Assembly (NCBI RefSeq): GCF_023243075.1
Contig: NZ_JALKFZ020000141.1
Span: forward strand, 1 to 64,000
DNA length: 64,000 nt
Direction of reading: 5' to 3'
Source of the DNA: Frankia sp. AiPa1
Lineage (GTDB): Bacteria; Actinomycetota; Actinomycetes; Frankiales; Frankiaceae
The number at the start of each line of letters is the position of its first letter. Within the stretch, counting starts at the first letter, position 1. Under the pieces are notes generated by a model. The model made no database searches. It worked only from the letters and a program-made list of their open reading frames with translations, and was not told where the DNA came from. The position numbers were made by a program, and so were the translations under genes. Positions 8,824 to 33,112 of the stretch are shown in pieces.

Positions 8824-10167
8824 GTGTCGTCATCGGATCTGCATGGGCGCGAGCTGCACCTGAGCGTGCATCCGGTGGCCGCCGGCCATCATCCGGGGGC
8901 CTGGCGATGGCCTGGAGCCGATCCGCTGGCGTTCGCCCGGATCGAGGGGTACCTCGAGGTCGCGAAGGTGGCCGAGCGCGGACGACTCGACTCGATCTTC
9001 CTCGCGGACGTCCCGGGACTGCACGCCGACATCGATGACTACCCGCTGCTCAACGGCCTCGAGCCGACGCTGATCCTCACCGCGATGGCCGTCGTCACCG
9101 AGCGGATCGGGCTGGTCGGAACCGCGTCGACCACGTTCAACGAGCCGTTCAACATCGCCCGCCGGTTCCGGGCCCTGGACCTGATCAGCCACGGCAGGGC
9201 CGGCTGGAACGCCGTCACCACCTCGGGCCCGCGCGTCTCGGGCAACTTCGTCGCCGACGAGCCGAGCGCCGAGCAGCGGTACGCGCGGGCCGAGGAGTTC
9301 GTCGCCGTGGTGCTCGACCTCTGGCGCAGCTGGGCGCCGGACGCCCTGACCGCCGACGTGGAGGCCGGCCGCTACGCCGACATGGGCCTGATCCGCCCCA
9401 TCGATCACCACGGGGAGTTCTTCAGCGTACGGGGACCACTCAGCCTGCCCCCGTCCGAGCAGGGCTACCCGGTGATCTACCACGCCGGCGTGTCCGACGA
9501 CGTGCGCACCCTCACCGCCCGGACCGGCGAGGCTATGTTCACCGCCGTGGTCGACCCCGACACGGCCCGCGCCGAGCTGGACATCGTCCGCACCCGGGCC
9601 GCCCGCTTCGGCCGCCCCCGAGACGCGGTGCGTTTCCTGCCCGGTCTCGTCACCTCGGTCGGCGGCACCGAACAGGAGGCGCTCGCCCGGCGTCAGCGCC
9701 TCGACGAGCTGGCCGGTCCGCAGAGCGCGCTGCGAGCCGTCGCCGCGCAGCTCGGCCTGCCCGCCGGCGCGCTCGACCTCGACCGCCCCGTCCCCGACGT
9801 CCTGCGCGGGAGCCTGGTCCACGTCCGCGGGCACGCCCGTCCCTACGCCCGCCTCGCCGCGCGGGGACACACCGTGCGGGACATCATCCGCCGCGGCGGC
9901 GGTGGCGGGCACATCGTCGCGGCGGGTGCCCCGGAACAGGTCGCCGACGTGATCGAGACCTGGTTCACCACCGGGTTGGTCGACGGGTTCACGCTCATGC
10001 CGGACGTCACCGTCGACGGGCTGCCCGCCTTCGTCGACCACGTGGTGCCGATCCTCACCCGGCGTGGAGTCTTCCGCTCGGAGTATCGAGGAACGACGCT
10101 GCGAGAGCACTATGGTCTCCCGATCCCGGACGTCGCCACCCGCCGGCCGCTGGCGCGGAGCCTCTGA
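8824..10167 (+). CDS. FMN-dependent monooxygenase, NtaA/SnaA/DszA (luciferase-like) family
   Basis: A 447-residue LLM-class oxygenase that would use reduced flavin from a separate reductase to oxidise an organic substrate; family members act on nitrilotriacetate, pristinamycin precursors, dibenzothiophene sulfone or alkyl sulfides. The family signature is clear: LVGTASTTFNEPFNIARRF followed by LDLISHGRAGWNAVT (about residues 98-138), and the C-terminal FRSEYRG-TTLREHYGL. The GTG start at 8824 has AAGGAG eight bases upstream. Its stop overlaps the ATG of the next LLM gene (TGATG), so the two are translationally coupled. A paralogue lies at 60157-61548. The substrate is unknown. Confidence 0.93.
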   Translation: MSSSDLHGRELHLSVHPVAAGHHPGAWRWPGADPLAFARIEGYLEVAKVAERGRLDSIFLADVPGLHADIDDYPLLNGLEPTLILTAMAVVTERIGLVGTASTTFNEPFNIARRFRALDLISHGRAGWNAVTTSGPRVSGNFVADEPSAEQRYARAEEFVAVVLDLWRSWAPDALTADVEAGRYADMGLIRPIDHHGEFFSVRGPLSLPPSEQGYPVIYHAGVSDDVRTLTARTGEAMFTAVVDPDTARAELDIVRTRAARFGRPRDAVRFLPGLVTSVGGTEQEALARRQRLDELAGPQSALRAVAAQLGLPAGALDLDRPVPDVLRGSLVHVRGHARPYARLAARGHTVRDIIRRGGGGGHIVAAGAPEQVADVIETWFTTGLVDGFTLMPDVTVDGLPAFVDHVVPILTRRGVFRSEYRGTTLREHYGLPIPDVATRRPLARSL

Positions 10168-11339
10168 TGGTCGCGCTCTCCTTCGTCGACCAGGGTCCCA
10201 CCTCCGCTGAGACCCCTGGAGCGCGGAGTCTGCGGCACTCGGTCGCGCTCGCCCAGCTCGCCGACGAACTCGGTTACACCCGTTACTGGGTCGCCGAGCA
10301 CCACGGTGTGCGCAACATGACGATCGCCGCTCCGGAGATCCTCATCGCGCACATCGCCGAGCGGACGAGCCGGCTGCGGGTGGGCTCGGGCGGCATCATG
10401 CTGCCCAACCACTCCCCCCTGCACGTCGCCGAGCAGTTCCGCACCCTCGAGGCGTTGTACCCGGGACGGATCGACCTGGGGATCGGTCGCTCCACCGGGA
10501 CGGGCGACGACCCCACCCGCGACGCGCTGCTGCGCACCCCCGACGGCCTGGACCGGTTCGACGAACACCTGCGCCAGCTGCTCGCCGTCGGCGGGCGGGG
10601 GGACCTGCCCGCCGACGACCCGTACCGCGGTCTCATCGCGTCACCGGCGGCCGTGCCACTGCCACCGGTCTTCCTGCTCGGCGCCAGTGTGCGCAGTGCG
10701 AGGCTCGCGGGTCAGGCGGGCCTCGGATACGGATTCCTCGGCGTCTACCAGGACCCGGCGGTCGCGATCGAGGCGCTGCGCGCCTACCGCGCGTCCTTCG
10801 TGCCCCGTGTCGGTGCGCTCCGTGTCGATGCCCCCGACGCCGACGTCCCCGGCGCTGACGTCCCCGGTGCCAAGGCGGACCGGCCGACGGCGATCCTCGC
10901 GGTGCGGGTCTGGGTCGGCGAGGACGACGAGCACGCCGCGGCACTCGCCGCCCCCGAGCGACTCGCCGTACTCGACTACCTCACCGGCAATCCAAGCCCC
11001 CTGGAGTCCGTCGAGCGGGCGCTCGCCCGCCGGCTCACCGACGCCCAGCTGGCCAAGCGGGAGACGCTCGACGCGCGCGGCGACGTCACCGGTGGCGTCG
11101 AGCGGGTGGCCGCCCGGCTCGCGGAGCTCGCCGACGCCAGCGGCGCCGACGAGATCATGGCGATCTCCAACATCCATGACCCCGAGGATCGCCGCGACTC
11201 GCTGCGGCGTCTGGCGCTGGCCGCCGGCCTGCGCCCGGCGCCCGCGGCCCCGATTCCGCATCCCGGGTCCGTTCCCGACCCCGCGGCGGTGCCGCGGGAG
11301 GCGGCGTCGGCGTCCGCGTCGCCTGACCGGTCCGCCTGA
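10167..11339 (+). CDS. LLM-class flavin-dependent oxidoreductase, MsnO8/YhbW-like
   Basis: A 390-residue luciferase-like oxidoreductase of the short group (TRYWVAEHHG near residue 40, LRVGSGGIMLPNHSPL near 72-87, IDLGIGRSTGTG near 106). Its ATG shares one base with the stop of the upstream monooxygenase, so the products are probably made in fixed ratio and may act in sequence or share a reductase. The last 25-30 residues are Pro/Ala-rich and probably disordered, as is an Asp/Ala/Pro repeat near residues 220-235. No flavin reductase gene is adjacent. Confidence 0.9.
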   Translation: MVALSFVDQGPTSAETPGARSLRHSVALAQLADELGYTRYWVAEHHGVRNMTIAAPEILIAHIAERTSRLRVGSGGIMLPNHSPLHVAEQFRTLEALYPGRIDLGIGRSTGTGDDPTRDALLRTPDGLDRFDEHLRQLLAVGGRGDLPADDPYRGLIASPAAVPLPPVFLLGASVRSARLAGQAGLGYGFLGVYQDPAVAIEALRAYRASFVPRVGALRVDAPDADVPGADVPGAKADRPTAILAVRVWVGEDDEHAAALAAPERLAVLDYLTGNPSPLESVERALARRLTDAQLAKRETLDARGDVTGGVERVAARLAELADASGADEIMAISNIHDPEDRRDSLRRLALAAGLRPAPAAPIPHPGSVPDPAAVPREAASASASPDRSA

Positions 11340-11349
11340 ACTCCAGCGC

Positions 11350-11393
11350 CGCGCGGCAGGAATCGTGGTGTTCCTCGGTTCCCCTGCCGCGCG
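11350..11393. terminator. Bidirectional terminator-like hairpin
   Basis: Perfect 11-bp arms 11350-11360 (CGCGCGGCAGG) and 11383-11393 with a 22-base loop. It starts 11 bases after the stop of the LLM gene and lies between two converging genes, as expected for a shared terminator. It has no T tract, which is common in high-GC actinomycetes. Confidence 0.6.
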
Positions 11394-11530: not shown

Positions 11531-12379
11531 TCAGGAGTAGCTGTGGATGGTGACGTTACTCAGGGTCGCGTCGCCGGCCTTTGCTGCCGCTTTGCAGATG
11601 TTCACCTGTACGACCCGGCTCGTGCCGTCAACGACGTTGAAGCAGTAGATGGATGCCGTCGCGTCGCCACCGCGGACGGTGACGTTGATCCCGCGGCGGG
11701 TCGACGTGGTGCCGTCCGCGTTGTGGGTGAGCACGTCGACGTTACGCAGGCTCCACGCCCCGCCGGTACCGCTACCGTCGCAGTCGTCCTCCTGCCGGTC
11801 GGGATCCGCGTTGACGTTGCGGCAGGCGGCACCCGCGGTGCCCCGCGCCGGCAGCGCGGCGGCGAGGTTGGCGATACGGCGACTGGTGGTGCTCCCGTCG
11901 GCGCGGTGACTGACCAGCGTGACGTTGTCGAGTCGCGGCTGCCCACCATGCCCGCTCGACGAGCACTCGTTGCGCTGGCGAGCGCCGGACGAGCCGGCAG
12001 GCCGGTGGCGAGCGCATGTGTCGGCGGCGGAGGCCGAGGTCCCGCCGCCGGCCAGCCTGGCCAGGGCGTCGTCGTCGCCGCCTCCACCGCTGCTGGGCAG
12101 GGTGATCTCGACGTCCCGCAGCGCCACGTCGCCGCCGGCCGCGTTCGCGTTGCACCGGCTGCGCTGGAGGGTGATGCGCCGCTGCGCGGCCAGGGCCTGG
12201 GCCTCGGCGACGTTGCCGCAGACCACGGCGCTGGTGGCCGTGCCGCCGACGATGTTGATATCCGCGTCCGCAGCGGAGCTGGGGACCGCTGTCGCTCCGG
12301 CGAACGCGACGCTCAGCAGCGGGGTGATGGCCGCGGCGGTCATCACCACACGCAGCCGAGTGAGCGCACTGGCGCCCAT
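11531..12379 (-). CDS. Secreted protein with four cysteine-pair repeats, unknown family
   Basis: 282 residues. A signal peptide covers about residues 1-36 (hydrophobic core AAAITPLLSVAFAGATAV, likely cut near SSA-A). The mature part is four repeats of roughly 55-65 residues. Each has two cysteines 13-21 residues apart, then a Gly-rich turn and a strand of type L-x-N-V-x-(L/I), as in LDNVTLVSH, LRNVDVLTH and LSNVTIHSY. Repeats 2 and 3 end in a shared ADG-(S/T)-TTS-RR motif. ATG 12379 is chosen because it precedes the signal peptide and has GAGAGGA upstream; the open frame to 12664 is not supported. The shorter neighbour at 12741 has the same repeat. Paired cysteines suggest one disulfide per repeat in a surface or extracellular beta structure (inference). 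It is not a chaplin or rodlin by any motif I recognise. Confidence 0.8.
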   Translation of the reverse strand: MGASALTRLRVVMTAAAITPLLSVAFAGATAVPSSAADADINIVGGTATSAVVCGNVAEAQALAAQRRITLQRSRCNANAAGGDVALRDVEITLPSSGGGGDDDALARLAGGGTSASAADTCARHRPAGSSGARQRNECSSSGHGGQPRLDNVTLVSHRADGSTTSRRIANLAAALPARGTAGAACRNVNADPDRQEDDCDGSGTGGAWSLRNVDVLTHNADGTTSTRRGINVTVRGGDATASIYCFNVVDGTSRVVQVNICKAAAKAGDATLSNVTIHSYS

Positions 12380-12608
12380 GTCGTTCCTCTCCGAGGCCGC
12401 CGCCGGCGGGGCCGCCACCGATGACGTCGTCGGGTCGTCAACGCCGACCGGATGCTCCGGCAGCGACGAACCCGTTCGTCCCCGGCCGGAAATCCGCCGA
12501 CGCGGTCTCACCACGGTAGGTGTGAAAAGTCCGGAACTGCCCGCGGAGCGCGCTCCGTGCCCCCCCGGTCCGCCGGCAGGCATTCCGACTTCTCGAAACG
12601 GTAAGGTC

Positions 12609-12662
12609 GTGGTCTGCCGTTCTCGCGGATCACGGCATTTCAGATCCGAGAAATGAGACCAC
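12609..12662 (-). terminator. Nested stem-loop between the two secreted-repeat genes
   Basis: Outer arms GTGGTCT (12609-12615) and AGACCAC (12656-12662) enclose inner arms 12620-12631 and 12643-12652 (TTCTCG, one bulged base, GGATC; then GATCC, GAGAA). On the minus strand it lies about 80 bases beyond the stop of the 12741-13241 gene and about 230 bases before the start of the next. It could terminate the first transcript or act as a leader structure for the second. Confidence 0.55.
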
Positions 12663-12740
12663 ACACGGCGTCGGGCGGATGCGGGAACCAGTCACCCCAC
12701 CCGCCCGAAGCCGAACTCGATTACTCAGTCAATCCGTTGC

Positions 12741-13241
12741 TCAGGTGTTCGTCTGCACGAGGGTCAGGTCGACGTTGTCCAGAGTGACGTTGCCACCGTT
12801 GGACGTCGCGCTGTTGCGGCAGGTGTTGGCCTGGGCCTCGGACGCGGTGCCCTGCACGTAGTTCACGCAGGCCGCGATGGCGGTCGAATCGCCCCCGCTG
12901 ATGTTGACCGACGCGTTGTTGTACGACCGGCCAGGCCCGCCGTCGTTCTCCTGGTCGACGAACAGGCTGACGTTCTTCAGGTGGACAGTTCCACCGGAGG
13001 CATCCGCGACGTTGCGGCAGTAGTTCGACCGCGGCCGCACGTGGTTACGGGCCGACCCGCGGGCGTAGTTCAGGCAGCCCGTGAGGGACGCCCCGCTACC
13101 GCCCTGAATGTTGATCTTGGCGTCGTTGAACTGGGTCGCGGACCCCGCCGCGAACGCCGGCGTGGCACCCATGACCGCGAACGCGGCCGCGAAAGCAACA
13201 GCCGTTCCCCGCGCCGTGCGCCCAAAACCCGAGATATTCAT
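12741..13241 (-). CDS. Secreted protein with two cysteine-pair repeats, unknown family
   Basis: 166 residues with a classical signal peptide (basic start, core AVAFAAAFAVMG, likely cleavage AFA-A at 31/32). The mature protein is two repeats of about 60 residues: a short strand (KINIQGG; VNISGG), Cys, 15-18 residues, Cys-Arg-Asn, then GG-x-V-x-L-x-NV-x-L (GGTVHLKNVSLFV; GGNVTLDNVDLTLV). Each repeat holds exactly two cysteines. It is homologous to the four-repeat protein encoded next on the same strand. No enzyme motif is visible. The ATG has an AAGGGGA ribosome site nine bases upstream. The role is unknown; a cell-surface or secreted structural role is a guess. Confidence 0.82.
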   Translation of the reverse strand: MNISGFGRTARGTAVAFAAAFAVMGATPAFAAGSATQFNDAKINIQGGSGASLTGCLNYARGSARNHVRPRSNYCRNVADASGGTVHLKNVSLFVDQENDGGPGRSYNNASVNISGGDSTAIAACVNYVQGTASEAQANTCRNSATSNGGNVTLDNVDLTLVQTNT

Positions 13242-14001
13242 GAAAGGATTCCCCTTCAGTCAAGTGCCGCTGACACATCGTCTCCACAGGGCAGCGACGC
13301 CATAATTTCCGAACACGTCGCCGGACAGGTTTCCTCGCAGTTCCCCCTGGCAGGCGTGGCCCAACGTAGCCAATGGAAAACGCGCCGTCAAAGCACCGGC
13401 CGCCCCGCGTGGCGTGCGGACACGCGACCACTCTGTCAGATACCTGACCGCGCCCCTCCGTGCAATGTGCAGCCCTTGCCACTAGCGCCGATCAAATCGA
13501 GTGCGCACAATGAGGCAACGAAGCCAGCCGGTCGATGCACCCGCTCTCCTTCCGACCCGGCCACCGACCCGGGCCGCCCGCCGGAACGGCGGTCCAGATG
13601 CGGCGATATCCTCGTATTTCTTTCCGCCGCCCGGCCGGCAGAACAATCCAGCGAATACGAATACTGCTTACCGAGAACCATCCCGTGGCCGGGGCGGACC
13701 GTGGTGGTGACCACGTGCCAGTCCGCGTGCGGACTGGCACGTGTGTCGGTCAACCGACACACGACCCGGCGCCGATGCCGACGCGGTTCATGGCCAGCCG
13801 CGTCCGGTGGGGCCGACCAGGTGCACGGGAACCGGGGCGCCCCGAGTCGTCCGCGCCCGCCACGCCCCGCACCCCACAGGGCCGAGCTCCTACCGCGCGA
13901 GGCCGGCAGAGCGGCCCGATTGTGGAAAATTCGTGCATATATTGTGACTCGACCGCAGTGGTCGGCGCTAAGTTGAGCTTCTCGGACGAGGGGGCTCTGC
14001 T
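13242..14001. other. Divergent intergenic region with strong palindromes
   Basis: About 760 bases between the secreted-repeat gene (leftward) and the solute-binding protein (rightward). No credible gene. It contains the overlapping palindromes at 13712-13763 and a less GC-rich stretch at 13920-13980 just before the lipoprotein gene, where its promoter probably lies. Confidence 0.5.
13712..13763. promoter_or_regulatory. Two overlapping perfect palindromes
   Basis: Palindrome 1 has 15-bp arms 13712-13726 and 13729-13743 around two bases (arm ACGTGCCAGTCCGC plus one). Palindrome 2 has 11-bp arms 13740-13750 and 13753-13763 around CA (arm CGTGTGTCGGT). They share 13740-13743, so as RNA or cruciform only one can form fully. 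The site lies between divergent genes, where a terminator is not expected, so a protein-binding or attenuation role is likelier. Confidence 0.65.
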
Positions 14002-32377: not shown

Positions 32378-33112
32378 ATGGCTCCACCGCAGGACTCCGC
32401 CCGGGTCGACACGTGGATCTGGTGCGTACGGCTGGTGAAGACCCGTTCCCAGGCGACGGACGCGTGTCGCGCCGGCCACGTACGGGTCAACGGGGAGCGG
32501 GTGAAGCCGGCCCACGCGGTCCGTCCCGGGGACGAGATCCGGGTGCGTCTGGCCGGGCGGGAACGTGTCGTCGTGATCACCCGGGTGGTGCGCAGTCGGG
32601 TCGGTGCGCCCGTCGCCGCCGAGTGCTACACCGACCACAGCCCGCCGGTCGAACGGCAGCCGGCACCGCTGGTCGCCGCCCGCGACCGCGGCGCGGGGCG
32701 CCCCACCAAACGCGATCGCCGCGCCCTGGAACGCCTGCGGGGCAGTGTCTCGCGGGGCAGTGTCTCGCCGGGCGGAGTCCCGCAGGACAGCTCACCCCCC
32801 CTGGCTCCCGCCGCAGGACACCCTGGAGCCCTAGGGACCGCCCTCCTCGCCGCTGCGCGTGACGACGGATCGGCCCCCGCAACTCTCCATGTCGCTTCTA
32901 CAGGGTTACGAAGGGGCAAATCGGACGAAAAACCCGGTAGAAGCGACATCCCCGCCCATCAGCAGCGCGCAACGGTCGCATGGCGCGACGGTGGGGTCAG
33001 GCGACGGTGGGGTCAGGCGACGGTGGGGTCAGGCGACGGTGGCACCAGGCAGTGCGGCGACCCCGGAAGGTGCGGGCGCGCCGGCCGGCATCGAGACCCC
33101 GGCGGGCACTGA
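32378..33112 (+). CDS. S4-domain RNA-binding protein (Hsp15-like) with a variable tail
   Basis: The first 110 residues are a standard S4 RNA-binding protein: RVDTWIWCVRLVKTRSQATDACRAGHVRVNGERVKPAHAVRPGDEIRVR, then GRPTKRDRRALERLRG. E. coli Hsp15 with this fold rescues stalled 50S subunits. Typical relatives end at about 130-140 residues; here the frame continues to 244 residues through low-complexity sequence, a long hairpin (32889-32949) and four 16-bp repeats, and overlaps the converging tetR by 84 bases. The tail is therefore probably not conserved and may reflect a lost stop codon. Confidence 0.82.
   Translation: MAPPQDSARVDTWIWCVRLVKTRSQATDACRAGHVRVNGERVKPAHAVRPGDEIRVRLAGRERVVVITRVVRSRVGAPVAAECYTDHSPPVERQPAPLVAARDRGAGRPTKRDRRALERLRGSVSRGSVSPGGVPQDSSPPLAPAAGHPGALGTALLAAARDDGSAPATLHVASTGLRRGKSDEKPGRSDIPAHQQRATVAWRDGGVRRRWGQATVGSGDGGTRQCGDPGRCGRAGRHRDPGGH
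32889..32949. repeat. Long hairpin element, copy 1
   Basis: Arms 32889-32907 and 32931-32949 pair at 18 of 19 positions (ATGTCGCTTCTAC, one mismatch, GGGTT) with a 23-base loop. It lies inside the 3' tail of the S4 gene. The CCATGTCGCT start and the loop phrase GGGGCAAATCGGAC recur in a second hairpin at 62324-62367. Confidence 0.75.
32985..33048 (+). repeat. Four tandem 16-bp units
   Basis: GCGACGGTGGGGTCAG is repeated at 32985, 33001 and 33017, with a degenerate fourth unit at 33033-33048. It spans the 3' ends of both the S4 and tetR genes; the tetR stop (33029-33031) lies in it. As 16 is not a multiple of three, copy changes would shift the frames of both tails. Confidence 0.88.

Follow-up and report, generated by a model that had tools for sequence, protein, structure and literature searches.

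The chaplins (ChpA-C; PF03777), known from Streptomyces and certain other actinobacteria, are secreted, strongly amphipathic proteins with a small, beta-prone unit of about 40 – 60 residues, often in several copies, with one cysteine pair, an SGNVVQVPV strand, and a CGN-V-V-G core. Right-handed beta-helix proteins consist of coils of about 22 – 25 residues, with short strands, N-V motifs, and hydrophobic alternation. The rodlins of Streptomyces represent a third system, consisting of an adjacent pair of secreted paralogues in a mycelial actinomycete. Obvious rodlins are confined to streptomycetes (PMC4255298). The window analysed here, a stretch of 64,000 nucleotides from the soil bacterium and nitrogen fixer Frankia sp. 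AiPa1 (contig NZ_JALKFZ020000141.1, positions 1 to 64,000), contains two adjacent genes in the same direction, A (12741..13241, minus strand) and, downstream of it, B (11531..12379, minus strand). Judged from sequence, their products may be Frankia-restricted, Sec-secreted, disulfide-stiffened proteins of the extracellular space or the hyphal surface, a reading to which a probability of about 0.4 is assigned.

Gene A encodes a precursor of 166 amino acids with a putative signal peptide (13146..13241, minus strand; MNISGFGRTARGTAVAFAAAFAVMGATPAFA-A), which would leave a mature protein of about 134 amino acids with two repeat units and four cysteines. Similarly, gene B encodes a precursor of 282 amino acids, the putative signal peptide of which (12269..12379, minus strand) ends in ...VPSSAA before DADINI, leaving about 245 amino acids with four units and eight cysteines. 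Both cleavage sites were read by eye; both signal peptides are of the typical Sec type and are conserved in the orthologues, in agreement with the first-pass annotation, which had described two secreted proteins. The coordinates given by that annotation were correct for both genes, except that the longest mechanical open reading frame of gene B, beginning at GTG 12664, has to be corrected to ATG 12379. The latter is almost certainly the true start, since the Sec-type signal peptide that begins there is immediately preceded by a ribosome-binding region (GCGGCCTCGGAGAGGA) shared unchanged by three Frankia species. Past the signal peptides, no membrane anchor or sorting signal was visible in A or B, and GRAVY values of -0.46 to -0.10 mark the mature products as mildly hydrophilic. 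Upstream of gene A, a candidate housekeeping-type promoter was read by consensus (13363..13391, minus strand; TTGACG - 17 bases - TACGTT). The form TTGAC - 17 bases - TAC[GC]TT is shared by the window and Frankia sp. R82, and Frankia sp. AgKG'84/4 has TTGGAC in the same place. A G+C-rich hairpin after gene A (12666..12713, minus strand), present in all three species with varying sequence, is likely the terminator of this gene, so that A and B are probably transcribed separately. An inverted repeat (11350..11393) between gene B and a convergent luciferase-like gene is likely a terminator common to both. The latter gene belongs to two adjoining luciferase-like monooxygenase genes (8824-11339), convergent on gene B; none were observed at this locus in the remaining Frankia genomes that were inspected.

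Each unit of 54 – 61 residues consists of an N-terminal strand (mostly INI-x-GG), a cysteine, 13 – 21 residues, a second cysteine, a GG or AG turn 5 – 8 residues further on, and an L-x-NV-x-[LVI] strand. Gene A encodes units A1 (12951..13133, minus strand; Cys56 and Cys75) and A2 (12753..12926, minus strand; Cys125 and Cys141), and gene B encodes units B1 (12098..12271, minus strand; Cys54 and Cys76), B2 (11909..12061, minus strand; Cys122 and Cys139), B3 (11726..11872, minus strand; Cys186 and Cys200), and B4 (11537..11701, minus strand; Cys246 and Cys262). This corresponds with the two and four copies counted before, each with two cysteines. Indeed, exactly two cysteines, always 13 – 21 residues apart, were found in all 18 units of the three species, and no mature protein has a cysteine outside its units (four in A, eight in B). 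All 12 cysteines are invariant among the orthologues. A hidden Markov model of the six A units of the three species retrieved B at E-values of 3e-13 to 2e-10, against 0.012 for the top-scoring sequence among 2,000 shuffles of B. Units B1 and B4 are individually significant matches to the profile. Unit B2 is diverged and matches weakly but in register (E-value of 0.7 – 2.3), and B3, the most diverged unit, matches very weakly and in its C-terminal strand only (E-value of 11 – 49). In a further profile search, both B2 and B3 were members of the training set. The recognition of these two as units, weak for B2 and very weak for B3, is suggested by the register, the cysteine pair, the GG turn, the L-x-NV motif, and the conservation of that pattern.

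The orthologues in the three Frankia species are 72 – 76% identical, with dN of about 0.14 – 0.17, dS of about 0.45 – 0.59, and dN/dS of about 0.24 – 0.37. Synonymous changes exceed nonsynonymous ones about three- to fourfold, and A and B thus bear the signature of real coding genes under purifying selection. The GC content at the successive codon positions is 57, 55, and 89% for A and 67, 61, and 89% for B. A chance frame is ruled out by the orthologues, the dN/dS values, and this codon bias. In whole-genome searches, a profile of A alone retrieved B in all three genomes (E-values of 2e-9 to 2e-8) and a profile of B alone retrieved A (6e-7 to 1e-4). Together with the excess of the A-unit model over 2,000 shuffles, the search with A alone bears out the kinship of A and B by duplication that had been proposed from the tandem arrangement. 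Orthologous units of different species are far closer to each other than units inside one protein, indicating that the duplications are older than the split of the three species and that the expansion is not recent.

Regarding known families, Pfam, NCBIfam, PHROGs, PADLOC, and PDB sequences gave chance-level matches only, and no paper mentioning these proteins was found in the literature. Within these libraries, the unit could not be placed in any annotated family and the description of an unfamiliar repeat holds. As to distribution, the pair is present in three of the 13 Frankia species genomes, namely the source genome, R82, and AgKG'84/4, the last two providing homologues in related genomes. 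Relatives were absent from the 22 other genomes of the family, from plasmids, phages, and viral contigs, and, in sample searches of which the first pass scored part of the candidates, from about 390 genomes of the class outside the three Frankia (three profiles), from about 395 genomes of the phylum, and from all 121 Streptomyces genomes. A full scan of the genome contigs, which made use of two short peptide patterns and the A alignment only and reaches close relatives, yielded R82 and AgKG'84/4 only. All weak matches outside the three Frankia were inspected and dismissed, namely a stop-containing frame opposite ABC-transporter genes (L007), a membrane-protein-like open reading frame (L109), a transporter-like open reading frame, random frames, N-masked DNA, and proteins that, named by eye, are aldehyde-dehydrogenase-like, MerR-like, metalloprotease-like, and glnE-like. 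Lineage-restricted secreted families are common, and the distribution of A and B points to a genuine, lineage-restricted orphan family.

In the window and in R82, the pair lies downstream of a common glycosyltransferase - SRPBCC - P450 - HelD block. Both flanks of the R82 locus have a colinear counterpart in Frankia genome G006, with about 0.8 kb there in place of the about 4.7 kb holding the pair in R82; the pair is thus dispensable. As the window, R82, and G006 group together in the glycosyltransferase tree, loss in G006 is the more economical explanation; across the genus, a minimum of two changes is forced. In the window, the neighbours of the pair are luciferase-like and Peripla_BP_6 genes. 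The AgKG'84/4 pair maps to a contig of 4.3 kb, where PIN and uracil-DNA glycosylase genes adjoin it; the glycosyltransferase copy of this strain is located elsewhere. As no neighbour accompanies the pair through all three genomes, the pair itself is the unit of inheritance. These regions have other features as well. The G006-colinear stretch of R82 includes, a few kb past the pair, a Replic_Relax gene (L017, 12999-14051; replication-relaxation) that belongs to an integrated, plasmid-like element. At the edge of the AgKG'84/4 contig (L018, 1-363), short tandem CRYDEQ units run in frame into a PIN-domain toxin fragment. Elsewhere in the window, ARAGORN called a tRNA-Arg of 89 bases with anticodon GCG (32635-32723, minus strand). 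This anticodon is unusual for tRNA-Arg in bacteria, ACG being normal, and the call may be false or the tRNA odd.

Accessory genes for competition typically show a patchy presence, here with an insertion or deletion in a locus that is otherwise colinear, and a fairly fast protein change (the above dN values). Together with the element-borne Replic_Relax gene past the pair in R82, these traits would fit soluble secreted effectors in competition or colony defence, such as an inhibitor, an antimicrobial, or a binding protein, in which the units would serve to bind ligands. This is nevertheless unlikely, as no immunity-like gene accompanies the pair, no toxin, inhibitor, or defence model of the libraries matches A or B, and the dN/dS values reflect purifying selection and not diversification. 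A symbiotic role, at the surface of the root or nodule or close to it, may be considered too, as both R82 and AgKG'84/4 are nodule isolates, from Myrica gale and Alnus glutinosa, respectively (PMC9670867, PMC9379372). It is, however, improbable, given that ten of the 13 Frankia genomes lack the pair and that no symbiosis-related gene adjoins it.

Concerning structure, AlphaFold models from alignments of nine and six rows were unusable (pLDDT of 35 and 38), probably due to scant sequence diversity. Beta-type alternation of the N-terminal strand is above that of shuffled sequences (reached by none of 1,000), and that of the C-terminal strand is not (reached by 377 of 1,000). One disulfide per unit and a beta-rich repeat stack, as suggested by the first-pass annotation, would be plausible. 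It is rather doubtful that A and B represent a far-diverged known fold, such as a right-handed beta-helix, a lectin, or another beta repeat, which would be compatible with any role. The L-x-NV-x-L strands are reminiscent of beta-helix coils, and the power of profiles and structure prediction alike is limited by there being just three sequences, closely related, for each protein; on the other hand, no single unit matched Pfam at an E-value of 1 or below beyond two chance-level matches, and a profile search of the PDB gave no match. If the unit is indeed a new disulfide-locked repeat fold, it would offer a secreted scaffold that is small, modular, and easy to express and that has no characterised relative.

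According to the preferred reading of A and B as extracellular or hyphal-surface proteins, both would be exported via Sec, after which the two cysteines of each unit would pair as one disulfide, closing a loop of 13 – 21 residues flanked by two short beta strands. The mature protein would then consist of two or four such modules in a row, small, protease-resistant, and rich in glycine, asparagine, serine, and threonine. It would remain outside the cell and serve there for structure or adhesion, A and B acting jointly. Arguing for this are the 12 invariant cysteines, the N-terminal alternation, the lack of a catalytic or known binding domain in library profile searches, the retention of the pair despite differing neighbourhoods, the conserved promoter-like and ribosome-binding sequences, and the lack of chaplins in the sampled Frankia. 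Arguing against a surface material are the low pLDDT values, the C-terminal alternation at shuffle level, and the mildly hydrophilic character of the mature proteins. The pair would be a candidate extracellular matrix for Frankia, the sampled genomes of which yielded no chaplins. A further step, in which a new disulfide-stabilised beta-repeat module takes over the part of chaplins in some chaplin-less Frankia and builds an extracellular coat on hyphae or spores, is a long shot; if true, a mycelial actinomycete would have invented a surface matrix independently. As ten of the 13 Frankia genomes do without them, A and B are not a core coat.

A comparison with the three described systems shows both differences and likenesses. 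First, the short strands, N-V motifs, and hydrophobic alternation recall right-handed beta-helix proteins, although the unit of 54 – 61 residues with its cysteine pair differs from their much shorter coil and no Pfam beta-helix family matched A or B. Second, A and B resemble rodlins (RdlA and RdlB) as adjacent, signal-peptide-bearing paralogues in a mycelial actinomycete; the library search of Pfam and NCBIfam gave no match at an E-value of 10 or below. Third, chaplins by descent are out, as had been anticipated. Indeed, PF03777 matched neither A nor B (hmmscan, E-value of 10 or below), and alignment of the unit with the chaplin domain by hhalign, direct and circularly permuted, gave probabilities of 0.3% and 0.1%, no better than column-shuffled controls (mean 0.17%, maximum 1.9%). 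The genome-wide search for PF03777 found none in the source genome. Among the Frankiaceae genomes sampled (G000, G005, G010, and relatives), none yielded a PF03777 domain, and Streptomyces-like genomes carry many. Unlike chaplins, A and B lack the SGNVVQVPV strand and the CGN-V-V-G core, and they are mildly hydrophilic instead of strongly amphipathic. The two cysteines per unit, found in 18 of the 18 units, are a weak chaplin feature, as some chaplin-like units lack cysteines. Similar to chaplins, however, A and B combine a signal-peptide-like start with several copies of a small, beta-prone unit of comparable length with one cysteine pair, and a C-x-N ... C-x-N echo before and after the loop is common to both. 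In the preferred reading, the working mode of A and B would be somewhat chaplin-like, relying on extracellular repeats of a beta module with two cysteines, but without common descent.
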